This document shows positions 32,531-44,220 of a stretch of DNA of 51,709 bases, piece by piece. The notes beneath the pieces are model-generated. The model was not told the origin of the DNA, made no database searches, and saw nothing but the letters and a program-made list of their open reading frames with translations. The stretch spans positions 1-51,709 of the forward strand of contig CAKZNV010000134.1 in NCBI GenBank assembly GCA_937132085.1. The letters are read 5' to 3'. Origin of the DNA: an uncultured Rubritalea sp. Lineage in GTDB: Bacteria; Verrucomicrobiota; Verrucomicrobiia; Verrucomicrobiales; Akkermansiaceae. Numbering within the stretch: position 1 is the stretch's first letter; each line of letters starts with the position of its first letter. The translations under genes were made by a program, and so were the position numbers.

Positions 32531-33382
32531 ATGGCAGGATTTTTCAAGAAACTCATAAACAAGATCACCAACAAAGCGGAAATCGACTGGGACGAGCTAG
32601 AAGCTGATCTCATCTCCGCTGACCTAGGTGCACGTCTCACCATGACTATTGTGGACGAGCTCCAGTCACTTGGTAGAAAAGTCAACTCTGACGACATCGT
32701 AGACACTGCCAAGAAACACATTTCTCAGATCCTCCCTGCTGATCTTCCAGAGCTCCAGCCACGCACCGATGGCAAGCCTCACGTCCTCCTCATGGTAGGC
32801 GTCAACGGCACAGGCAAAACTACCTCTACTGCCAAGCTAGCTACCTATCTTAAAAGCCAAGGCCACAGCGTCATGGTCGCAGCTGCTGACACCTTCCGTG
32901 CAGCCGCTGTAGAGCAGCTCCAAGTCTGGGCTGAGCGTCTCGACATCCCTATCACCGCGGGAGCCCCAAATGCTGATCCTTCATCAGTCTGCTACACAGC
33001 TCACCAGAGATGTATCGCTGAAGGCATCGATTTCCTCATCTGCGACACAGCAGGACGTCTCCACACCAGGCACAACCTCATGGAAGAGCTCTCCAAGATA
33101 GAGCGAACCATCGCCAAGCAAGACGAGACAGCTCCACACACCAAGCTCATCGTAGTCGATGCCACAACAGGCTCCAATGCTCTCCAACAAGCTCTACAGT
33201 TCAACAAAGCCATCACACTCGACGGCCTAGTAGTCACCAAACTCGACGGATCAGGCAAAGGCGGCATCATCGTCTCTATCTACCAAGAACTCGGCATCCC
33301 AGCCCGCTTCATCGGCCTAGGAGAAGAAGCTAAACAGTTCAAGATCTTCAGAAAAGACGAGTTCACTCAAGAAATTATGTAG
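32531..33382 (+). CDS. ftsY: Signal recognition particle receptor FtsY
   Basis: 283 residues: the N and G domains of FtsY without the long acidic A domain seen in Escherichia coli. G1 GVNGTGKT at 90-97, DTFRAAAVEQLQVWAERL, G3 DTAGRLHTRHNLM, G4 TKLDGSGKGG and the closing GLGEEAKQFKIFRKDEF. It docks SRP-ribosome complexes at the membrane by GTP-dependent pairing with Ffh. The gene ends 7 bp before the convergent end of the 33390 gene. Confidence 0.96.
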   Translation: MAGFFKKLINKITNKAEIDWDELEADLISADLGARLTMTIVDELQSLGRKVNSDDIVDTAKKHISQILPADLPELQPRTDGKPHVLLMVGVNGTGKTTSTAKLATYLKSQGHSVMVAAADTFRAAAVEQLQVWAERLDIPITAGAPNADPSSVCYTAHQRCIAEGIDFLICDTAGRLHTRHNLMEELSKIERTIAKQDETAPHTKLIVVDATTGSNALQQALQFNKAITLDGLVVTKLDGSGKGGIIVSIYQELGIPARFIGLGEEAKQFKIFRKDEFTQEIM

Positions 33383-33389
33383 ACAAATA

Positions 33390-34115
33390 CTACTCAACAA
33401 CCTCAGTAAAAGTGATCCCGTGATAGCTGACTCTGTTGAATTTTTTGTTCCAGCCAAACACACAGATTTCTCTTCTAGTAGGTCGTAGAACAACCGTTGA
33501 GGCGCTGAGCAACTTCCATTGTTTGCTACCCTTATCTAGATACCCATAACTAGTTGCTACATTAACCGCTTTTTTCAGATTCTTGGCATCATAAATCTTA
33601 GACGACCTTGGTTTCACACGTAACTTCTTGTCTCCTAATTTCACCACAATCTCAGTCGGTGATAAATTAATGTAGAGGTAGTCACCACCTTTAAACTTCG
33701 TAAGGTCTTGCACAGAGGTCGAATAAACCTGCGTTGAACCTGTCTTCTTCGCTTCAGCTGGACTGAGAATGATCAGCGAATCTTTTGAAGTCGTTTTCAC
33801 TACTGCTTTTGCAATTACCTGATAGGGATCTTCTCCTTCAGCTGGATTTTCTTTTAACTCCACTACTTCTACGATCCCAGATGCTGTGAGTTTTATCGGA
33901 TCACTTGCTGAGCGCTTTGACAACTCTACCTGCTGAATTTTTTTCCCGGTGCGCACCGTAATCGGATTCTTAAACCCTTTGGGAAAACTAGTGCAGACAA
34001 AGTAGGCTTTCTTGCCTCTCGGCTGACGTGGATTCTCGCTATCATCAGCTTGGGCAGCGAGGAATTGGCTACCTGCTAGAAGGTATAAAAATGCCAGTAG
34101 TATGTTCTTAATCAT
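33390..34115 (-). CDS. Small secreted protein of the prepilin cassette, copy 1
   Basis: 241 residues with a signal peptide (MIKNILLAFLYLLAGSQFLAAQA). The mature region is basic and beta-rich. Its C-terminal half (FKGGDYLYINLSPTEIVVKL, KKLRVKPRSSKI, WKLLSASTVVLRPTRREICVF, VSYHGI) aligns with the copy 2 protein at 38193 (FKAGQRKVFNLSRVPIKIKY, VVLIKPREQKNL, WRKFLSSRWV, LIYHGL). It starts 18 bp after the giant prepilin-like gene at 34134, so the two form an operon. No known domain is recognised. Likely exported and partnered with the giant protein. Confidence 0.8.
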   Translation of the reverse strand: MIKNILLAFLYLLAGSQFLAAQADDSENPRQPRGKKAYFVCTSFPKGFKNPITVRTGKKIQQVELSKRSASDPIKLTASGIVEVVELKENPAEGEDPYQVIAKAVVKTTSKDSLIILSPAEAKKTGSTQVYSTSVQDLTKFKGGDYLYINLSPTEIVVKLGDKKLRVKPRSSKIYDAKNLKKAVNVATSYGYLDKGSKQWKLLSASTVVLRPTRREICVFGWNKKFNRVSYHGITFTEVVE

Positions 34116-34133
34116 AATAAAATGGTGCAGTGA

Positions 34134-37100
34134 TTAGACTTCATTCGGTGATAGCCAATGGAAACTTTGGATTCTGAATCTACGGCCAAATCTTCGGTTT
34201 AGCTCAGTCAGTTCTGCATTATCTTTAAATAGACCATTCTTATCGATGAGACGAGCTGGAACAGAAGCGTCGTTAGCTGGATCACAGTAATCAGGGTAAC
34301 GCTGAACGATCGCCTCGCACCATGCACGTGCTACTACTTTGCCGTTAGCATCAAGCGATTCTCCATAAGCACGGATACGGAAAGTATCATCGCGGACAGT
34401 AAGCGTATTCCCTATTGGCTTGAGCAGATCTGACTGAATAATATACCCAGGAATAGCAGTAAACCTAGAACCGACAGCCGCCTCCGGAGTTTTATAGTCA
34501 TGGTCACCCAGCTGCTTGTTCGTGATCATGTAGTCAGGACCATTTTTGAATTTATAGTTAATGGACTTAGAATCTGGTGATTTATCATCGTAATCAATGG
34601 CACTCTGAAGCGCACCCATCGTTCCTAATTTGTCATCAGAGAGTCTACGATTAATAAACTCTGAGTAGTTCAGGAATGGTCCACGAAGCTTGACTTGTTT
34701 AACACATTCTTCAGCGAGCTTTAGAAGTTGTTCATCAGTGAGGTAACGAACTCCAGTCCATGAGATAGTGTCGTCAGTGAGAGTCACACCGTGCTCTGGA
34801 GATCCCATTTCTTGCTCAGAAATCTCTGTATTGAATCGTGATAAAGCAATTTTACTATCCGATGGCACCTTTATCTTTTTAAGCTCACCATTATCACGGT
34901 AGACCAGTTCACGAGATCGAATACCTGTGAACAGAGCATACCACGCATCGACTGAGGTGCTGTTTACATTGAACATACCTTCGACCATCAGATACTTTGC
35001 AGACTTGAGGTAACCATCTTGCGCCTTGAGTTCGGCCTTAATTGTCTCTGCTACACCCTCGTTCCTGATAAAATGTAATCGGTTATTGGCTCCTACTTTC
35101 CCTTTTGAAAACATTTGGTCAATATTCTCATCCAAACTGAGTGCGGCATCAGCTCCCGTGCGGACTTGATCAGCCAGAGAGGAAACGTAGTAGTCATCCC
35201 AGAGGGCATCGTTGAGTAAGAAAGTGTGATCCCAGTAATCGTTGTAAACTTTGTTGTCTCGCTCAGTCGTGTTATTTGACCAGCTTGAGACATCTTGGCT
35301 TTTAGAGTTATCCACATACCGATAGACATCCGTGCGTGGAAGCATTGGGTGAATGAACGAGTTTCCTAATCCTCCACCAGTGACACCACTCTGATAATTC
35401 ATTTCCTTCATTACTGCACCGCTAAATGAGCTCCAAGCTCCACCTCCTCCAACAGCAATCTGATTTTGATGCGTCCAGCCTGGATTAGTTCTCATGTTAG
35501 AAAATCCTGCTATGCTAGAAATCGGTGCAGTCGGTAACTCCAGCATGACTGCTGCTGTCACTTTCTCATGGGGTGAAGAGCCAGATCCAAGAAAGGCATT
35601 ATCACCAAGGTGAGGCACTACTTTTGGCATATCAGCCCCAGACATAGCACCAAAATGCATTGTGTATGGATTATCGAGACGCTGAGTATGAGCTGTTTTT
35701 TTATCTTGGGAAATATACTGAGCACTGCCGAAGTAGTATGGAGGCGCTTGGAGCCAATTCTTGGAACGCCAGTCTTGCTCCCAATCAATACTCTCATATT
35801 CTAATTCTGATGAAGTCTTTACCGCAAATTGGTTAAAGGCAAACGGCAAAGGGTCATTATCAGCAAACTGCCACTTCCCAATCTCCGTTGAGCCTTTAGG
35901 GTTAATCGGTGTGTTGACTTGGTCTTTCTGAAACCAATCGTGAGCATACATGGTAGGTAGCCAGCTACCATACCCACCAAAGAAAAACGGTGTATTGAGC
36001 GCACCTGGTGTGTTACCGAACCAAACATTTCCTGATTGATTCGCAGGATTAGCAAAGGTCAGAGCGATCCCAGGTTTCTGAGTAGAAGAGACATTTTTGT
36101 GAATAAGCATCTTATCTCCGCCGATGGCTTGAGGGTCAAAACCCGGTAAGAATAATGTCTGCTTACCTGTGCCATTACCATTGCTTCTATAGGAAAACAT
36201 TCTTAGCTCACCTGGTTTAAAAACAATTTGGCTAGAGCTGTCATCACTAAAAAATGAACCGTAATCAGATTTGAGATCAATGCTAACTGGATTTAAACCA
36301 CCATTTGGGACTCCGTTGAGGTAACGATAGAATCCTAAAGGTAGAATTTTATACGGTAGAGAAAGCGCTCCAAGATCGCGGTTATTCATTCTAAGCTCTA
36401 CATTATACGGATTCCAAAACGTATAAACGGGAGTGTATACGAGATAGCAATTATATTTCTTGGGATTCGAATCAGGCACCGCAATACTCTGTAGGCTATA
36501 TATAAAGGTAAGCTTAGCCATAATTGGTAATCTCGCATAGGTGTTTGATCCTTTCCAACTATCTCTATACTTTGATGAAACTACATTGGTGTAAGGTTTA
36601 TAATTATCCCATTTTAAATTACCACCACCTTGAGTTCCTTCATTAGTAGCATCACTGTTTTTACGATACATGCGGTAGAAGTGGCGCAAGCGAGTCCATG
36701 AGGCAAAGTGTCTGCCAGGTCTCGTAGGATTTTTCCCAGCTAAATCCTGACTCATAGGCCGTATAGATGGTTCTCTAATATCGTTGAGTTTAAATTTATA
36801 AGAAGAGGGCAAATTATCTCCATCTAGCAAGAGGCTAAGATCTTTTTTAAGAGCTCCTGTTCTGGTGCTAGTCATAAGGCCTTTGCCATGTGCAGTAAGA
36901 TCATAAAAGTGATTATTTACAGTCTCACTCGCCACCATCGCTGGGCGAAGTGACTGGAGAGTGATGAGCTTTTCAGAAATATTTTCATTCGTGATTACAC
37001 CATCGAAACCTTCCAGACTGCTTACACCTACTTCAGAGGAAGTGCCTTGTGATGTTTCAAGTGAGCTTGCTGATGCTACAACCGCGTCCTTAAAAGTATT

Positions 37101-37760
37101 AATTTTAGCCTTATGGTTTTCTGGCCCTATCCACCATGCGTAACGACCATTTTTGTCAGCCTTTTTTAGGTAAGCACGCGTAATTTTATGTTGCTCAGTA
37201 TCTGCCTGCTTGCCGAGCGATCCCTCACCCACCACGACAATAGAGTTATCACTACTCAGAGCTGTAAACGGAGCGTTGATATCCTGAATCTGATCATCAG
37301 GAAGAGAGACTAGCCATCTACGGAACATTGGTGAACGTCGATCCACATAAGTGTCAGAAATATCCAAGGACAATGGACTACCATGATCATCTATAATTTC
37401 GTATTCATTATTTAGCCAACCACCCCAAGCATTGTAGCTAGCCATCCAGTGTGATTGCTCTAACCCATCAATCTCTGCAGTGTCTGTATCAGTATCAAAA
37501 AGAGCAGACTCAGCACTGACTCTCATATCTGGTCCCATCTCTTTCTGAAGTTCACCTATTGCGATCATCAGAGCTAATCTAGCATTGGCATTTGCTTCAA
37601 GCTGCGCCTGACTGGAGTAGGCTGAGCGAGTGCTAACACTGCTAATACTGAGCATCGCTAGAGCCACTAGCATCAACAAGCTCATTACTAAAATACTTGA
37701 AATTAACGCAAACCCTGAAGGTCTCTTCGTTGAACGATTTTTATGTGTTTTAAACTTCAT
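34134..37760 (-). CDS. Giant prepilin-like protein (Verru_Chthon cassette A type), copy 1
   Basis: 1208 residues. The N-terminus is basic with RPSGFALISSILVMSLLMLV: a type IV prepilin signal with cleavage after Gly and no Glu at +5, as in PilX/GspK. Then SSVSTRSAYSSQAQLEANANARLAL, shared with the copy at 38907. Near residue 920 is FNVNSTSVDAWYALFTG, like the NVNTA helix-hairpin of GspK proteins; LRGPFLNYSEFINRRL and the C-terminus LNRRFGRRFRIQSFHWL are also shared by both copies. The size and N-terminus match Verru_Chthon cassette protein A; cassette members B-D are not here. It may be exported through a pilus or type II system tip, or act as a large surface protein. Confidence 0.88.
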   Translation of the reverse strand: MKFKTHKNRSTKRPSGFALISSILVMSLLMLVALAMLSISSVSTRSAYSSQAQLEANANARLALMIAIGELQKEMGPDMRVSAESALFDTDTDTAEIDGLEQSHWMASYNAWGGWLNNEYEIIDDHGSPLSLDISDTYVDRRSPMFRRWLVSLPDDQIQDINAPFTALSSDNSIVVVGEGSLGKQADTEQHKITRAYLKKADKNGRYAWWIGPENHKAKINTFKDAVVASASSLETSQGTSSEVGVSSLEGFDGVITNENISEKLITLQSLRPAMVASETVNNHFYDLTAHGKGLMTSTRTGALKKDLSLLLDGDNLPSSYKFKLNDIREPSIRPMSQDLAGKNPTRPGRHFASWTRLRHFYRMYRKNSDATNEGTQGGGNLKWDNYKPYTNVVSSKYRDSWKGSNTYARLPIMAKLTFIYSLQSIAVPDSNPKKYNCYLVYTPVYTFWNPYNVELRMNNRDLGALSLPYKILPLGFYRYLNGVPNGGLNPVSIDLKSDYGSFFSDDSSSQIVFKPGELRMFSYRSNGNGTGKQTLFLPGFDPQAIGGDKMLIHKNVSSTQKPGIALTFANPANQSGNVWFGNTPGALNTPFFFGGYGSWLPTMYAHDWFQKDQVNTPINPKGSTEIGKWQFADNDPLPFAFNQFAVKTSSELEYESIDWEQDWRSKNWLQAPPYYFGSAQYISQDKKTAHTQRLDNPYTMHFGAMSGADMPKVVPHLGDNAFLGSGSSPHEKVTAAVMLELPTAPISSIAGFSNMRTNPGWTHQNQIAVGGGGAWSSFSGAVMKEMNYQSGVTGGGLGNSFIHPMLPRTDVYRYVDNSKSQDVSSWSNNTTERDNKVYNDYWDHTFLLNDALWDDYYVSSLADQVRTGADAALSLDENIDQMFSKGKVGANNRLHFIRNEGVAETIKAELKAQDGYLKSAKYLMVEGMFNVNSTSVDAWYALFTGIRSRELVYRDNGELKKIKVPSDSKIALSRFNTEISEQEMGSPEHGVTLTDDTISWTGVRYLTDEQLLKLAEECVKQVKLRGPFLNYSEFINRRLSDDKLGTMGALQSAIDYDDKSPDSKSINYKFKNGPDYMITNKQLGDHDYKTPEAAVGSRFTAIPGYIIQSDLLKPIGNTLTVRDDTFRIRAYGESLDANGKVVARAWCEAIVQRYPDYCDPANDASVPARLIDKNGLFKDNAELTELNRRFGRRFRIQSFHWLSPNEV

Positions 37761-37790
37761 ATAACAGCTTGTTGGTTTTCAAAAAGCACG

Positions 37791-38010
37791 CATTTGTATA
37801 AAACGCCTAAATACAGTATATACTTTGTATACACCAAATCAAGTTAGTAATCGTATGACAAACTCCGTGAGATTTCCCCTTATTCTATACTTAAAGACCA
37901 TACTGGCTTAAAAAACGTTACATTTTTTCTCAGTATGACCTTATTTTTTCTCAGTATGACCTTATTAATAGTGAGGGTTTCCCCGTCAAAAGTTAACATC
38001 TTTTATTCAA
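37791..38010 (-). promoter_or_regulatory. Conserved upstream region of prepilin cassette 1
   Basis: The 432-bp gap between the giant gene (37760) and the 38193 gene contains blocks shared with the gap upstream of copy 2: CATTTGTAT at 37791 (31 bp from the start; 42396 in copy 2), AACGCCT at 37802 and 42414, the block ACCATACTGGCTTAAAAAACG near 37897 (related sequence near 42503) and TCAAAAGTTAACATCTTTTATT near 37987 (42577). On the minus strand TATACAAATG could be the -10. The rest of the gap holds a 21-bp tandem repeat and a hairpin; no gene is seen. Confidence 0.55.
37922..37963. repeat. 21-bp tandem duplication
   Basis: ATTTTTTCTCAGTATGACCTT at 37922-37942 is repeated exactly at 37943-37963, then a partial ATT. 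It lies upstream of the giant prepilin-like gene. CATACTG (near 37902) and CAGTATG in each copy are inverted to each other, so the unit may be a regulatory site or a product of slippage. Confidence 0.75.
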
Positions 38011-38127
38011 TGAGTTTGATTAACCAATTGCAGCAGATCAAAAAGTGTGGGGGCACAGTTGATCACAACTATGGGGCAAAAGCTGACAAAGCAGCATGAT
38101 ATGATACTTCGCAGAACTTTAGAGTAA

Positions 38128-38158
38128 GAAAAAGGAGAACCTGAATATCAAGTCCCCC
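38128..38158 (-). terminator. Probable terminator after prepilin cassette 2
   Basis: On the minus strand GGGGGACTTG (38158-38149) pairs with CAGGTTCTCC (38143-38134) around a five-base loop, with three wobble pairs, and is followed by five T (38133-38129). It is 35 bp downstream of the 38193 gene stop. Confidence 0.5.
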
Positions 38159-38192
38159 TCTATTTTATAAATCGACTCTCCAATCGACCAAC

Positions 38193-38897
38193 CTAATTAG
38201 CGCTCCCAGTCGCTATGTTCGTCTCAGGTTCAATACTATCCTCTAGTCCATGATAGATCAAAGATTTGGTGGAGGGTTCGGCATACACAAACATAATCGA
38301 GCGAGTGTGTTTATTAGCAACCCATCGAGATGATAAAAACTTTCTCCACTTTTTCTTTTCCTTGTTTGCGAGAAACACTCCTACAACTGGGATATATTCA
38401 CCTTTGAGAGATTTGGGAATGGCCAGATTCTTTTGCTCTCGAGGCTTTATTAGCACTACTTTACCAGCGTATTTGATTTTTATAGGCACTCTGGAAAGAT
38501 TGAAAACTTTGCGTTGTCCAGCTTTGAAATTCGCAGCGCTAGCATCAAGCTGTTGGATACGCCATGGCGCAGAGCCTGATTTCTTTTGCTTGAATAATAG
38601 TCCTATGACTTTTTTAGTTCCACCAGATAGCTTGAATGAACTCATAGGAGTCTGATCTGTAATACTAGAGACAAGTCGGTATCTTTTACCTGCTTTGACC
38701 GTATACTTTGGTGACAGTTGCCAAGACGATAGAGTTACAGAAATAGGCTCCTCCTCCTTCGCTATGAGAAAAAACTCTGTCTGCTTTAGCTTACTTACGC
38801 TAGCAAGCTGGAGTTGAACGTTAACTTCTTTTTTATCATGTTGAGCACTGAGAGTCAGTGGCATCATCATCATTATTGCGGCTAATAAAATTTTCAT
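38193..38897 (-). CDS. Small secreted protein of the prepilin cassette, copy 2
   Basis: 234 residues with a signal peptide (MKILLAAIMMMMPLTLSAQ). Paralogue of the 33390 gene: the C-terminal halves align over about 100 residues (FKAGQRKVFNLSRVPIKIKY, VVLIKPREQKNL, IMFVYAEPSTKSLIYHGL). Basic and probably beta-rich. It follows the giant gene by 9 bp. Divergence at the N-terminal half suggests different partners for the two copies. Function unknown. Confidence 0.8.
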   Translation of the reverse strand: MKILLAAIMMMMPLTLSAQHDKKEVNVQLQLASVSKLKQTEFFLIAKEEEPISVTLSSWQLSPKYTVKAGKRYRLVSSITDQTPMSSFKLSGGTKKVIGLLFKQKKSGSAPWRIQQLDASAANFKAGQRKVFNLSRVPIKIKYAGKVVLIKPREQKNLAIPKSLKGEYIPVVGVFLANKEKKKWRKFLSSRWVANKHTRSIMFVYAEPSTKSLIYHGLEDSIEPETNIATGSAN

Positions 38898-38906
38898 AGG
38901 TTTTGG

Positions 38907-41900
38907 CTATTTGAGGTTAAGGTTTAGCTTCGGAAGCCAATGGAATGAGCTTATTCTGAATTTTCTTCCGAACATTTTATTAAGTTCCGTAATACTCTCA
39001 ATGGCAGTATCACTGGAGTCAGTGGGATCTACAAACTTTGCTGTCCTCTGAACGACTGCTTTACATCTAGCAGTTGCTACAATTTTCCCTCTAGCATCCT
39101 TACTCTCACCATAAGCATAGATGGTAAATGTATCTCCACGTGCTGTGATAATAGGAGCGAGAGGCGTAAGTATGTCTGCTTGGCTCACGTAACCTGGAAT
39201 TCCTCTAGCTCGTGGCATCCCATCTCCATCAGGTCCGTCCACTGCTGCTTTGTTAGTAAATTTAGCATCTGGGAAATCGGCTGACTTAAATAATTCAGAT
39301 CGATACTCTTCGTTAATACTGACTGATTTATATTCAAGCGCGGCCTGCAGTGCTCCATAAACAGATTTGCCATCTCCAGTGTCTACACGTTGACGATTCA
39401 CAAACTCTGAGAGAGATCTAAATGGACCACGTAGCTTGATTTCTTTTACGATGGCCTCAGCTAGTTCGTCTATTTGATCTTTGCTGAGTTCACGATAGCC
39501 ATTGAATCCATCAGTATATGCATCTCCAGCCTCATCGATTGACACTCCATTTGGCATAGTGAAACGAGACACAAAGTATTTATCAGTAGTTTTGATCTTC
39601 ATCTGAGAACCAGCAAGTGGGCTTTGTGTTGGTATTTTTACTTTCAATGTCGACGCTAACAGAAGTTTCCAAACCTCAGGTGAGGTATTATTAATGTTCA
39701 CTCCTCCCAACAGACCAAGATGAGCAGGAAGTATTTTGTGCGCATCGACCGTTGGCTTATCCACATCTATCAGTAGTTCTTCTAGTGTATCTTTTTCTAA
39801 ATCAGTATTAGGAATAATGCGGTCATTGGGTAGCGAGCGTTTGTGATCAAAAAAGTCTGTGTATACTTCTTTCAGGCTACGAGCAGTTCCAGCTGACTTA
39901 AACCAAGGAGTATCTTGAGGTGCTAGCGTGGTGAATGTGTATGAATCCCAGATCAGAGAATTGGCAGCCCAAAGACGATCAGTCATCGGCTTATAACCTG
40001 ATATCAAACCACTCGAATCCCCTTTTGCCACCAAGGCATACTCTCTGTTTTCAGTGAGGACCGTTGATGATAACCAAGGGTGAGCCCAAGAATTGCCAAT
40101 ACCAAATGTCCAAGTAGGAGTATGAGGGTGAATAGAATCATGCTTCCAACCGATGTCCTGTAAAGGCAAATGCTGTAACTGCCCCAGTGAGTGTAACGGT
40201 GTGAAAGGAAGCTCACAAAGTGTCAGATAAGATGAGCCTCGTGCCGGATTCTTACTGTAGCCCATCACATCGTGCATTCCGTCAGCATCATCAGTAACAT
40301 GGAGATGTTTACTGAGATCTGTTTCTCCTCGTAGCGGAGTAAAGCTATACTGCATAGGAGATGCTTGTCTCCCGCTCTTTAAATCCTCACCAGTAGCCGC
40401 GTAGTGAGGAGTCACATTCATGCGGTGTGGGTAGTCAAATGCCCAGAGCAAACCCGGCTGCTCAGTGTGATCAGCAGACTTGGTCCCTAACTCAACAATA
40501 GCTAACGGCCAAGGTGAGTCTTTCAATGAGCCGAGTGTCTTTCCCTTCATGATGCCTTCACCACCTGTAAGAATATCTCTATATCGGTCTAGCTTGAATG
40601 CCCAATTATGAAACTTAGTCGATCTATAGTTACCTATGTCATCTAACCAACCATCAAAATGCTGACTACTTTTCCAATTATTATTGAAAAAGTTATCACT
40701 GGCAAACAAGCTGATATCTACTGTGGTGCCTACACCACCTTCTATCCCTGTATCTCCTGTTGAGAAGTTTGCGAGTTGAGCTGTATTTTGAAACCATTCA
40801 TTAATGAAGTTCATATTGCCATAGTTTGAGTTCGATGGATCAGGAAACAGCACCTTGGTCTCACCTGGCCTGAACTTCAAAGAACCTTTACCAGTCGCTT
40901 CACCAAATCTATAGGTAGAGTTCCCCCCTAGTCTTTTTTCTATAGTCGCCCCACCTACTGTCACCTTGTAGTCAATCGCATGTCCCCGACTACGGCACCA
41001 GGCTCTTGGTAGCTCTACATCCACATTGTAAGGATTCCAAAACGTCAGCACCGGGTATGAGATAAACTCCAATTTTAAAACATTCGCATCACCAGGTTTA
41101 GCAACAGCTCTCACGTAAATTATATCTCTCGCTCGGGTGATCACCGGAACTAAGCGTAGTGAGTGACCATAGCCAGCCCAATATCGGTCTGTCACATCAT
41201 CCTCGTTGTTAGTTTTTACACGATGTGTGGTTCTTCCTGTTTGGAGAGACACATTCGTAGAATCATTGACTAGTGGAGTCTTCGTCTTCGTCCCCATGTG
41301 GCTTGACTGATAATAGCGATGAATAAGTGACATTGGGAGGGTGTCATGGTTTACAGATTCAGCAGTAGTCGAGAGTTCTATATCACTAAATTTTCGTTGA
41401 TTCACAGACAAGCGCCCCCCCCATCTAGATGGTAAATCCTGCATCATCTTGTAGTCTGCTGGTAACTCTTTCTCATCTAGCTCTAGCAGCATATTTAGAC
41501 AATGCTTCCAGCCCCCCTTTTTTACATCAGTCAGTAGAGACATTGAATGAGGTGTTAGGTAGCTATCTAGATCTTCCTTTTTGCCTGTAATTTTCTCAAT
41601 CAAGTGCAGTTGCTCACTTGTAACATACTTATCTAGGGCTGTCCCAGCAGCATCAAGATTTTTCAAACTATCTAGAGTCTCATGACTATGGAGACCTGAC
41701 AACCCAGAGCGGACCAAAGCATCTGCCACTTTCCCACCAACAACCTCTGTTACCTGGTGAGTATTTGCTAAACGATATTTCATACTCTCATCAGCAATCC
41801 CCCAGGCATAGGCTCCATTAGCAACTGGTATTCTATCAGCCTTTAGTCTTTGGTTCACATCGGAGTGAGCAGTAAGAGCTATCTCATCAAGAAATACTCC

Positions 41901-42362
41901 ACTCTGAGCAAAATCAGAGTTTTTCTTTTCCTCCGCCTTTTGGTGAGACACTAGCCATGTTAGAAAGTTCTTGGAGCGTGCATAATAATCAGAATCTAGG
42001 CTATTCTTCATTTCGTCCTCAGCTGTCCTAGCCTGATAGATAGCGACAAGCTTCTGATGTGATACACCATTGACCTCCGTCGAGTCAGGATCAGCATCCC
42101 ATTGTGTCGCTGGCACTGAAATCCGCTGATCAGGGCCAGCAGCTTTCTGCAGTTCACCAATCGCTATTATAAGAGCCATTCTGGCATTCGCATTCGCTTC
42201 TATCTGAGCCTTACTCGTATAGGTGGAGCGAGTGCTCACACTACTGATACTAAGCATCGCCAGAGCCACTAACATCAACAAGCTCATTACTAGAATACTT
42301 GAGATTAGCGCAAAGCCTGAAGCTGACTTAGAAGATTTCTCTTTATTGGGTTTAATTTTCAT
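38907..42362 (-). CDS. Giant prepilin-like protein (Verru_Chthon cassette A type), copy 2
   Basis: 1151 residues. It opens with ASGFALISSILVMSLLMLVA, the same prepilin-type signal as copy 1, again without Glu at +5. Shared blocks: STRSTYTSKAQIEANANARMAL, YPVLTFWNPYNVDVELP (copy 1: YTPVYTFWNPYNVELRM), VNINNTSPEVWKLLLAS, LRGPFRSLSEFVNRQR, YVSQADILTPLAPIITARGDTF and LNKMFGRKFRISSFHWL. The middle is strongly diverged, so the duplication is old. It is the first gene of a two-gene operon with 38193. Role as in copy 1; an export or adhesion function is inferred, not shown. Confidence 0.88.
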   Translation of the reverse strand: MKIKPNKEKSSKSASGFALISSILVMSLLMLVALAMLSISSVSTRSTYTSKAQIEANANARMALIIAIGELQKAAGPDQRISVPATQWDADPDSTEVNGVSHQKLVAIYQARTAEDEMKNSLDSDYYARSKNFLTWLVSHQKAEEKKNSDFAQSGVFLDEIALTAHSDVNQRLKADRIPVANGAYAWGIADESMKYRLANTHQVTEVVGGKVADALVRSGLSGLHSHETLDSLKNLDAAGTALDKYVTSEQLHLIEKITGKKEDLDSYLTPHSMSLLTDVKKGGWKHCLNMLLELDEKELPADYKMMQDLPSRWGGRLSVNQRKFSDIELSTTAESVNHDTLPMSLIHRYYQSSHMGTKTKTPLVNDSTNVSLQTGRTTHRVKTNNEDDVTDRYWAGYGHSLRLVPVITRARDIIYVRAVAKPGDANVLKLEFISYPVLTFWNPYNVDVELPRAWCRSRGHAIDYKVTVGGATIEKRLGGNSTYRFGEATGKGSLKFRPGETKVLFPDPSNSNYGNMNFINEWFQNTAQLANFSTGDTGIEGGVGTTVDISLFASDNFFNNNWKSSQHFDGWLDDIGNYRSTKFHNWAFKLDRYRDILTGGEGIMKGKTLGSLKDSPWPLAIVELGTKSADHTEQPGLLWAFDYPHRMNVTPHYAATGEDLKSGRQASPMQYSFTPLRGETDLSKHLHVTDDADGMHDVMGYSKNPARGSSYLTLCELPFTPLHSLGQLQHLPLQDIGWKHDSIHPHTPTWTFGIGNSWAHPWLSSTVLTENREYALVAKGDSSGLISGYKPMTDRLWAANSLIWDSYTFTTLAPQDTPWFKSAGTARSLKEVYTDFFDHKRSLPNDRIIPNTDLEKDTLEELLIDVDKPTVDAHKILPAHLGLLGGVNINNTSPEVWKLLLASTLKVKIPTQSPLAGSQMKIKTTDKYFVSRFTMPNGVSIDEAGDAYTDGFNGYRELSKDQIDELAEAIVKEIKLRGPFRSLSEFVNRQRVDTGDGKSVYGALQAALEYKSVSINEEYRSELFKSADFPDAKFTNKAAVDGPDGDGMPRARGIPGYVSQADILTPLAPIITARGDTFTIYAYGESKDARGKIVATARCKAVVQRTAKFVDPTDSSDTAIESITELNKMFGRKFRISSFHWLPKLNLNLK

Positions 42363-42711: not shown

Positions 42712-44220
42712 CTACAGCTGAGCCTTTTTCCAGCCTTTACCTTGATTCAGGTATTCAGATAGCTCTTCTACTACCTTTGCTTGCGCAGGATCTTTCGCGA
42801 TGTTCTTTGTCTCCTTAGGATCATTCTGATGATCATAGAGTTCACGATCCACGACAGCATTGCCATTCTTCGTATCAAGCCACTCTACATATCTATAGCG
42901 ATCTGTCTTCATCGCATAGCCTCTACGCTTACCTCTACCGAACTGTGAAAATGCAGCATGTTTCCACTTCATGTCAGGGTCAGCCAACAATGGCTTAATG
43001 CTACTTCCCTCTAATTTCTTAGTAACAGGAATCCCAGCTAGATCAGCTAATGAAGGAAAAACATCAACCAGCTCAACAAGTGCCTTACTTTGTTTACCAA
43101 CAGCCTCAGCTTTCATGCCTGGAGCTCTACAAATAAATGCCACATTGGTATCTAACTCATAATTAGTAGTCTTGCCCCAAAGCCCCTTCTCACCAAGATG
43201 ATAACCGTGATCACTCCAGAGTATAACGATAGTATTTTCAGCTAAACCATTTTTATCTAAAGCATCTAGAACTAGGCCGATCTGAGCATCGATGTAACTA
43301 ATACAAGCGTAGTATGCCTGCTTAGTGCGTTGTTGATCTTTCGTAGAAAAGGCACCTCTCTTAGCTTGATCTGTGTATCTGCGCTTCTCACCGGAGCTAT
43401 GTCCAGCATAGCGAGGAGCATCAGTAGGGAAATCTGGATTCTCTGCGAGAGCTATTTTTTCAGGATCATAGAGATTAAAGTATTTTTCAGGAGCTATATA
43501 AGGTGAATGTGGCTTGATGAATCCTACAGCTAGGAAAAATGGTTGGTCTTTCTTTTTACCAAATTCATCGAGATATTCCACAGCACGCTTAGCAACCTGA
43601 CCATCATAGAGCACATCATCTTCTACTGGCGAAGCCTCAGTGAGTGGACCGAATACTAAATGTTCAGTCCACTTCTCGATTGGCTTCTTAGGATATATTC
43701 TCTTGAAGATTCCCTGCGCAGCCTTAATCCCCTCTTCCGTATAGTAATATCTAGGCCCTGGACGAAATGCAGGAGTGCTCCAACTCTCGGCATCTCCCAT
43801 CACATCCCATCTAGGAGCCATTCCTTTAGGGAAAACGCCATGGTTGATCTTTCCACAAGCTGCGGAAAAATAACCATTGTTCTTAAAATGCTGAGGCAAT
43901 GTGACGATATCAGGATTCTTATCTCTATAGTGAGCATGGTTTCCATGAACCCCAGATGAATCAGGACGCAGCCCAGTCAACAAACTCGCTCTAGTAGGTC
44001 CACAAATCGCCTGCTGACAATACGCTCGCTTAAATAACAGTCCACTAGCAGCTAATTTATCAATATTAGGGCTCTTCACATGAGAAGCACCATAACATCC
44101 CAGCTCAGGACGCATGTCATCCACCGCTATCATCAGCACATTGAGTTTCTTCTCTTCAGCCTGAAGCACACCTATTGCTAAGCTCGCAGCTGTTATTGCG
44201 TAAGTAAATTTCTTAATCAT
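42712..44220 (-). CDS. Secreted formylglycine-dependent sulfatase (iduronate-2-sulfatase type)
   Basis: 502 residues with a signal peptide (ITAASLAIGVLQA). The alkaline-phosphatase-like core has metal ligands VDDMRPELGCYG (Asp34, Asp35) and the activation motif CGPTR at 73-77, where Cys73 becomes formylglycine through an FGE enzyme (not in the window). ASLLTGLRPD, FLAVGFIKPHSPY, VILWSDHGYHLGEKGLWGKTTN are typical of iduronate-2-sulfatase/choline-sulfatase relatives. Verrucomicrobia use many such enzymes on sulfated algal or host polysaccharides. It appears monocistronic; the substrate cannot be read from sequence. Confidence 0.93.
   Translation of the reverse strand: MIKKFTYAITAASLAIGVLQAEEKKLNVLMIAVDDMRPELGCYGASHVKSPNIDKLAASGLLFKRAYCQQAICGPTRASLLTGLRPDSSGVHGNHAHYRDKNPDIVTLPQHFKNNGYFSAACGKINHGVFPKGMAPRWDVMGDAESWSTPAFRPGPRYYYTEEGIKAAQGIFKRIYPKKPIEKWTEHLVFGPLTEASPVEDDVLYDGQVAKRAVEYLDEFGKKKDQPFFLAVGFIKPHSPYIAPEKYFNLYDPEKIALAENPDFPTDAPRYAGHSSGEKRRYTDQAKRGAFSTKDQQRTKQAYYACISYIDAQIGLVLDALDKNGLAENTIVILWSDHGYHLGEKGLWGKTTNYELDTNVAFICRAPGMKAEAVGKQSKALVELVDVFPSLADLAGIPVTKKLEGSSIKPLLADPDMKWKHAAFSQFGRGKRRGYAMKTDRYRYVEWLDTKNGNAVVDRELYDHQNDPKETKNIAKDPAQAKVVEELSEYLNQGKGWKKAQL

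Follow-up and report, generated by a model that had tools for sequence, protein, structure and literature searches.

Two tandem cassettes of giant and small exported proteins

The analyzed window is a 51,709-nucleotide stretch of DNA from an uncultured Rubritalea sp. of the phylum Verrucomicrobiota. Its minus strand carries two tandem cassettes, each with a giant prepilin-like gene followed by a gene for a small exported protein, and their open reading frame coordinates, strand and order are exactly those given in an earlier note made from the sequence alone. The first giant (1151 aa, 38907..42362) has a class III signal peptide (SG/FALIS, the slash marking the putative cleavage site) and no Glu5. 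Its N-module (about residues 1-300, 41463..42362) contains the pilin helix (residues 17-75) and the first part of the K head, followed by a variable, largely β grafted insert (about residues 301-850, 39813..41462) and a C-module (about residues 851-1151, 38910..39812) with an NINNTS segment, a helical part and the final strands. The insert boundary is approximate, as is that of the N-module, which was set from model m106699a530c7 and alignments with short K proteins. The small partner of this giant (234 aa, 38193..38897) is strongly basic and has a Sec-type signal peptide and no lipobox.

The second cassette encodes a giant of 1208 aa (34134..37760, PSG/FALIS) and a small exported partner of 241 aa (33390..34115). 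The giant and small genes are separated by 9 nt in the first cassette and 18 nt in the second, whereas an A+T-rich gap of 432 nt (37761..38192) probably splits the two cassettes into two transcription units. Both giants share the N-terminus SG/FALISSILVMSLLMLVALAML, in which residue 5 is Ser, and none of the 81 giants with a recognisable motif has Glu5, in agreement with the earlier description of prepilin-type proteins lacking this residue. The GspK-like NVN-type segment is also present (NINNTS and NVNSTS in the window giants) and conserved across the family. The shared terminal blocks and divergent middle noticed in the window proved to be general features, with mean pairwise identities among 84 giants of 0.36 for the N-block, 0.42 for the C-block and 0.25 for the middle; the C-module is the best conserved block and the insert the least conserved.

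A recent duplication of the cassette, as might be read from the earlier note, was not supported. The two window giants share about 30% identity, and a gene from another species (L026:5965-9597, 1799 bits) is far closer to the 34134 giant than is its best paralogue in the Rubritalea genome (540 bits), so the cassettes are not recent duplicates. The 241-aa small protein and its counterpart beside the L026 giant share 57% identity.

Predicted fold of the giant proteins

The combination of a class III signal peptide and a long hydrophobic pilin helix (G/FALIS..., residues 17-75) fits a K subunit. The predicted structure of the 38907 giant had GspK from the T2SS HIJK tip (3ci0_K) as its sole strong match in VIA-align (Z 11.3, rmsd 2.9, 235/280 residues; next match 5.1), and the alignment extended through the C-module to model residue 1148. 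Foldseek alone placed 3ci0_K at rank 36 (E 0.52), and the GspK assignment rests on VIA-align together with gene order. Short K proteins of 435-446 aa, encoded at L117 and L121, align with the giant N-module and stop after the VL..GG segment; compared with them, the giant has one internal insertion of ~550 aa. The giants are thus predicted to be a GspK fold with an internal insert of about 500-550 residues, that is, a pilin module plus a grafted module as in modular pilins. Many segments of the insert in the 38907 model have a pLDDT below 50.

At the sequence level, the giants reached 19.0 and 19.8 bits against the T2SS GspK equivalog model NF037980 (cut-off 130), the 19.8 bits being those of the 38907 giant and confined to its N-terminus, and were not filed as T2SS GspK because these scores are far below the curated cut-off. 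A sequence profile of the C-module found no GspK in the PDB and gave no alignment signal with the genome's own GspK, an ordinary 315-aa protein of a complete T2SS. PDB sequence searches with the giant and with the small protein returned nothing convincing.

Pairing, co-occurrence and gene order

The small protein of 33390..34115 is predicted to form two tandem β-sandwich domains (mean pLDDT 91) without an enzyme-like fold. Sec-like N-termini with a hydrophobic segment are present in 80 of 84 small proteins, which have no membrane anchor or lipobox. The family diverges rapidly (mean identity 0.21); no NCBIfam or Pfam model matched it above cut-off, and no PDB sequence matched it. Pfam Cupredoxin_1 (E 0.0036) fell below cut-off and was not used. 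Structural matches of the model to the PepT2 ectodomain, AlgF and domain 4 of cholesterol-dependent cytolysins reflect a common β-sandwich arrangement, and no toxin function is proposed despite the cytolysin match.

The small paralogues belong with the giants, as the earlier note had it. In the Rubritalea genome the 3' end is readable for 13 giants, and each of these adjoins a small paralogue. A survey of gene neighbourhoods over all loci found a small gene directly downstream on the same strand for 86 of 104 giants, and about ten further pairs emerged after correction for over-long start choices; these proportions show that the pairing is not due to chance. The loci with giants include those of two cultured relatives, Haloferula luteola and Roseibacillus persicicus. 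In a sample of 145 genomes from the phylum, the lack of co-occurrence that would have refuted the earlier note clearly does not hold: small genes are present in 20 genomes, all of them giant-bearing (p = 2e-15), and the copy numbers of the two families correlate (rho 0.97). Across 84 pairs, giant and small distances gave a Mantel r of 0.92, which alone is no proof of binding since linked genes share their history; the small protein also tracks the variable middle of the giant when the C-block is controlled for (partial r 0.59). A scan of 86 neighbouring genes for functional class revealed no dominant family (at most 5/86).

A J-like prepilin gene was detected in 30 of 35 giant-bearing genomes and in 6 of the 110 others (p = 5e-20). 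The match was missing at the threshold used in giant-bearing G060, G091, G116, G119 and G134, but the gene nonetheless lies beside a giant at L118 (G091) and L119 (G060). Expanded genomes carry 9-19 giants and mostly a single J-like gene. In a sister genus, the giants carry the insert without a recognisable small partner, and the partner is therefore not always needed; a divergent exported protein encoded nearby, considered as a candidate for the absent partner, aligns with the small family over its full length with an indecisive score.

The giant-small pair terminates a pilin operon in four other genomes, in the order H/D-, I/B- and J/C-like prepilins, giant and small protein at L115, L116 and L118, and I/B, J/C, giant and small at L119. 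At L117 and L121, a short K occupies the same operon position and the small gene is absent. The operon K proteins and the Rubritalea giants form one family (hhalign E 1e-100). The earlier statement that the B, C and D companions are missing is correct for the neighbourhood of the giants, with no prepilin beside them in the window or at L001-L012, but not for the whole genome, which has one D/B/C-like trio unlinked to the giants (G000:C71, L094:6198-8709). On C19, the Rubritalea genome has a second set of genes, for two assembly ATPases, a platform protein and a GspG-like pilin.

Giant-small pairs as proposed alternative filament tips

These results suggest, with a probability of roughly 0.6, that a type 4 filament, either a pilus or a pseudopilus, has alternative tips and that each pair forms one of them. 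This reading draws on the model fold, the absence of Glu5, the pairing and co-occurrence, the operon context in other genomes, the mostly single-copy J-like gene and the association of insert and partner; cleavage, tip position, docking, ligand binding and exchange are proposed as follows. The giant would enter the inner membrane via its class III signal peptide and be cut by prepilin peptidase after Gly. The K subunit capping HIJK is the one without Glu5 (PMC10628169; PMC10191384), and the giant may lack this residue because no subunit stands above K. Its split GspK-like head would cap the H-I-J minor pilins and carry the insert of ~500-550 residues outward at the filament tip, where the small protein, exported by Sec, would dock on the insert of its own giant. 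Together they would form a tip head that probably binds a ligand, for example a polysaccharide or another surface. With one H-I-J-like set kept alongside many K-small modules, we propose that the tip could be exchanged by expressing another module.

Each known system shares part of this arrangement. Like the giant, GspK has the predicted fold, no Glu5, an NVN-type segment and, as for relatives of the giant, a gene adjoining H-, I- and J-like genes, whereas the giant differs in its insert of about 500-550 residues, its private small exported partner, its up to 19 copies per genome and its score far below the curated GspK model. PilB and PilC of the Streptococcus sanguinis T4P are likewise pilins that carry a bulky graft, expected to sit at the tip (PMC8179133, PMC10628169), but there the extra module comes after the pilin module in proteins other than K, whereas in the giant the graft lies inside the K head and a second protein accompanies it. 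In the T4bP of enterotoxigenic E. coli, the large tip minor pilin CofB contacts the secreted protein CofJ (PMC10191384); this is a single pair, and the likeness is drawn without sequence or gene-order comparison.

The CofB-CofJ contact, and the direct contact of T2SS HIJK with secreted effectors (PMC10191384), would also fit an alternative in which a T2SS-like pseudopilus has the giant as its K-type tip and pushes out the small protein as cargo that is not part of the tip, as would the Sec-like small proteins lacking anchor and lipobox. We consider this unlikely, since it would be unusual to dedicate one giant to each small cargo, the genome's T2SS already has its own GspK, and the small-protein model lacks an enzyme-like fold. 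It is quite improbable that the small protein folds the insert in the periplasm, as a chaperone or assembly factor, and stays outside the tip. The near-obligate pairing, the small-protein distances tracking the insert and the absence of a small gene beside short K all fit such a role, but rapid divergence matching the variable insert suits a specific interface, a private copy per giant speaks for such an interface over a general chaperone, and the sister-genus giants manage without a recognisable partner.

Huge heads might be hard to fit in a filament body, as expected if the giants used their class III signal peptide to become membrane-anchored at the surface or in the periplasm and never entered a filament. 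The operons of other genomes that combine giants with H-, I- and J-like prepilins, the predicted GspK fold and the co-occurrence with the J-like gene make this very unlikely, and bulky modules are compatible with a tip (PMC10628169). The Verru_Chthon cassette (TIGR02596, 02598, 02599, 02600), with which the earlier note had compared the locus, likewise combines a giant prepilin without Glu5 with three smaller prepilins, and the Rubritalea D and C proteins match its models weakly (27.7 and 39 bits). Descent of the giants from Verru_Chthon cassettes that degenerated through loss of B, C and D would explain their size, their N-terminus and a weak TIGR02600 match, but it is hardly credible: the giants score 20-29 bits against a cut-off of 332.3 (28.7 for the 38907 giant, over the N-terminal 60 residues only), and the C-end of true Verru_Chthon_A gives no meaningful profile match. 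Verru_Chthon_A is unmatched over its length, and membership of the giants in this cassette was rejected. The giants also have a small partner, which was not seen beside A at L112-L114, and the trio of the Rubritalea genome is unlinked and single copy; no arrangement of A beside B, C and D was found in the window or at L001-L012. The two proteins occur in different genomes: of the 145 sampled, the 2 with a bona fide Verru_Chthon_A showed neither giant nor small family nor J-like protein at the applied thresholds.

If the pairs are alternative tips, a further and more tentative possibility is an interchangeable-tip filament, in which one H-I-J set serves up to 19 giant K subunits with their own docking partners. 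The choice among them would be made by expression in this lineage and, in the sister genus (probably Akkermansia), by programmed intragenic DNA inversion; in that genus the N-module of the giant lies within an invertible DNA segment. Thirteen expressed copies could also serve thirteen filaments. No interchangeable-tip filament was found described in the literature searched, and no paper on these proteins was found in the literature on Verru_Chthon, Verrucomicrobia with GspK and Akkermansia minor pilins.

Thus, the observation of the earlier note is confirmed and its interpretation is partly supported. Where it called the function of the family unknown, a specific and testable hypothesis can now stand, that of a K-type tip subunit with a cognate partner. 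A large unnamed Verrucomicrobiota protein family, with up to 19 copies per genome, thereby acquires a concrete hypothesis, as does a new family of small exported β proteins. The results suggest that a bacterium can diversify a single filament by multiplying K while the other tip subunits stay single copy. Should the sister genus be Akkermansia, the surface filament tip of a much-studied gut genus would be under the control of DNA inversion.

Giant prepilins and exported partners in the window and genome

ORF calling confirmed the positions, strand and order that the earlier note had given for two minus-strand cassettes, each composed of a giant K-like prepilin gene (38907-42362 and 34134-37760) and, after gaps of 9 and 18 nt, respectively, a gene for a small exported partner (38193-38897 and 33390-34115). 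Both giants open with the prepilin-type signal G|FALIS, in which Glu5 is replaced by Ser. They cannot be regarded as recent duplicates, because the 34134 giant matches a locus of another species (L026) at 1799 bits versus 540 bits for its best paralogue in this genome. A sulfatase gene (42712-44220) adjoins the first giant, and sulfatases and sugar-related genes also lie near other giant-small pairs, without clear enrichment. The FtsY encoded at 32531-33382 has just 283 aa and little N-terminal extension.

The structure of the 1151-aa giant was predicted from 50 sequences (mean pLDDT 75, pTM 0.84). When about 1000 chains were re-aligned with VIA-align, GspK of the ETEC T2SS was the sole standout (Z 11.3, 235/280 residues, rmsd 2.9, spanning model residues 45-1148; next-best chain Z 5.1). 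Foldseek alone ranks GspK 36th, which may be expected because the large insert splits the domain. The model of the small protein (mean pLDDT 91) shows two beta-sandwiches in tandem and matches the PepT2 ectodomain (Z 12.7), an AlgF domain (Z 10.0) and others, a widespread arrangement that, as modelled, is uninformative on function.

The window corresponds to contig C134 of an assembly (4.46 Mb, 254 contigs) that encodes 13 giants with a readable C-terminus, and several further N-terminal pieces run into contig ends. A small paralogue adjoins all 13, being located directly downstream on the same strand in 12 cases and convergent in one (L010:7692-8420 on contig C119, opposite strand to its giant). 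These paralogues share just 13-27% identity with the 38193 protein, and therefore a single-sequence search catches only seven, with all found by a profile search. The small proteins are strongly basic (pI 9.4-10.3 in all ten tested, from the window and loci L001-L012) and may bind anionic polymers; the median pI of the giants over all pairs is 6.4. Contigs C238, C178 and C10 (loci L007, L012 and L013) end at one common point in the giant N-module, whose sequence is near-identical between L007 and L012, suggesting recent copying or gene conversion at this breakpoint.

The giants are not the sole K of this genome, since a T2SS gene cluster on contig C236 (L093) encodes ordinary G-, H-, I- and J-like pseudopilins together with its own 315-aa GspK (69.9 bits). 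A second set on contig C19 (L098) comprises two assembly ATPases, a platform protein and a GspG-like pilin, and shorter, PilT-sized ATPases are present on C8 and C230.

Pilin operons and co-occurrence across the phylum

In other Verrucomicrobiota the giant closes a pilin operon, with prepilins assigned by NCBIfam and phmmer, mostly below cut-off. At L115, L116 and L118 the order is one or two G-like prepilins, D/H-, B/I- and C/J-like prepilins, a giant of 962-1094 aa and the small gene; at L119 it is a prepilin, B/I, C/J, a 1032-aa giant and the small gene. Operon K proteins and giants represent one family (hhalign E 1e-100). Equivalent operons at L117 and L121 encode a short K (446 and 435 aa) that no small gene accompanies. 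Short and giant K align at both ends and are set apart by one insertion of ~550 residues, placed after the 'VL..GG' and before the 'NLNT' segment. Within this sample, the insert and the small gene thus go together. Genomes with an expanded set of giants (this one, L094; L125, L126, L127) keep a solitary H-I-J operon without K, and their K-small pairs are scattered. The J-like protein is found in 36 genomes, usually as a single copy, 30 of which bear giants (p 5e-20); double matches per sister-genus genome are two halves of one gene.

Giants are encoded in 79 loci of named genomes, nearly all from Akkermansiaceae and other Verrucomicrobiota. Across all loci, a small gene lies directly downstream on the same strand for 86 of 104 giants, one is convergent and three leave no room. 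Of the 14 scored as lacking a small gene, most do have one, predicted with a start so far upstream that it overlaps the giant; four count as genuine exceptions (L043, L089 and the first giant at each of L028 and L067). L028 and L067 carry two tandem giants followed by a single small gene, and L055:2836-9753 is one 2305-aa ORF including a giant C-module, either a fusion or a start artefact.

The small proteins also co-occur with giants elsewhere, as the earlier note had asked to be checked: of 145 genomes of the phylum surveyed, 35 carry the giant C-module, and the 20 that encode the small family all belong to these 35 (Fisher p 2e-15). Copy numbers of the two families match (18/19, 19/19, 18/16, 14/13, 10/9, 11/10; rho 0.97, 17 genomes), and across 84 pairs the sequence distances of giant and small protein correlate with r 0.92, compared with a mean of 0.00 (s.d. 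0.03) after permutation. The closest fit of small-protein distances is to the variable middle of the giant (0.90, and 0.59 as a partial correlation controlling for the C-block); this is only suggestive of tracking beyond linkage, as linkage alone can yield such a correlation.

An invertible N-module in a sister genus

The analysis covered six genomes from another genus of the same family, probably Akkermansia judging from family and repeat motif (loci L100-L108). Their giant N-module (about 320 aa) sits in a ~1.16-kb segment (for example, L101:8800-9989 and L106:8533-9723) flanked by inverted repeats, ACGGATTCTAAATYCG. The repeats include CGGATT, which is the half-site of an inverton motif known from Akkermansia, CGGATT..AATCCG (PMC13343947). 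At one locus, L103 and L106 have an intact N-module, whereas in L101 and L108 it points away; in silico inversion of the L101 segment yields a single 1305-aa ORF. At a second locus the N-module is placed between two C-modules that face each other head to head: L107 has it joined to one of them, and L100, L102, L104 and L105 have it joined to the opposite one. Flipping restores or splits the giant ORF, with the variation in orientation seen between genomes. No small partner was recognised beside the giants in these six genomes (L100-L108). A conserved exported protein of 270-310 aa is encoded close to them (L106:3319-4131, L100:14441-15319, L102:4379-5308) and is possibly a diverged small partner.

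A proposed role at the pilus tip

In published systems, K lacks Glu5 and caps the HIJK complex of minor pilins at the tip, where assembly begins; HIJK of the T2SS touches effectors, and large modules grafted onto pilins are expected at the tip, GspK itself being a modular pilin (PMC10628169, PMC10191384, PMC8179133). By analogy, the giant would be processed as a prepilin and act as K, displaying its insert at the tip, and the small protein would dock onto this insert, perhaps contributing to ligand binding. The analysis itself established the fold of the model, the lack of Glu5, the giant-small pairing, the operon context and the co-occurrence; cleavage of the prepilin, location at the tip, docking, a ligand and tip exchange are inferred. 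In the main rival explanation, the small protein would be cargo. On the tip reading, each giant-small pair would constitute one alternative tip, and tips may be exchanged. On this reading the giants are a variant of the known K-type minor pilins, bearing a large insert and multiplied in units that each include an exported protein of their own.
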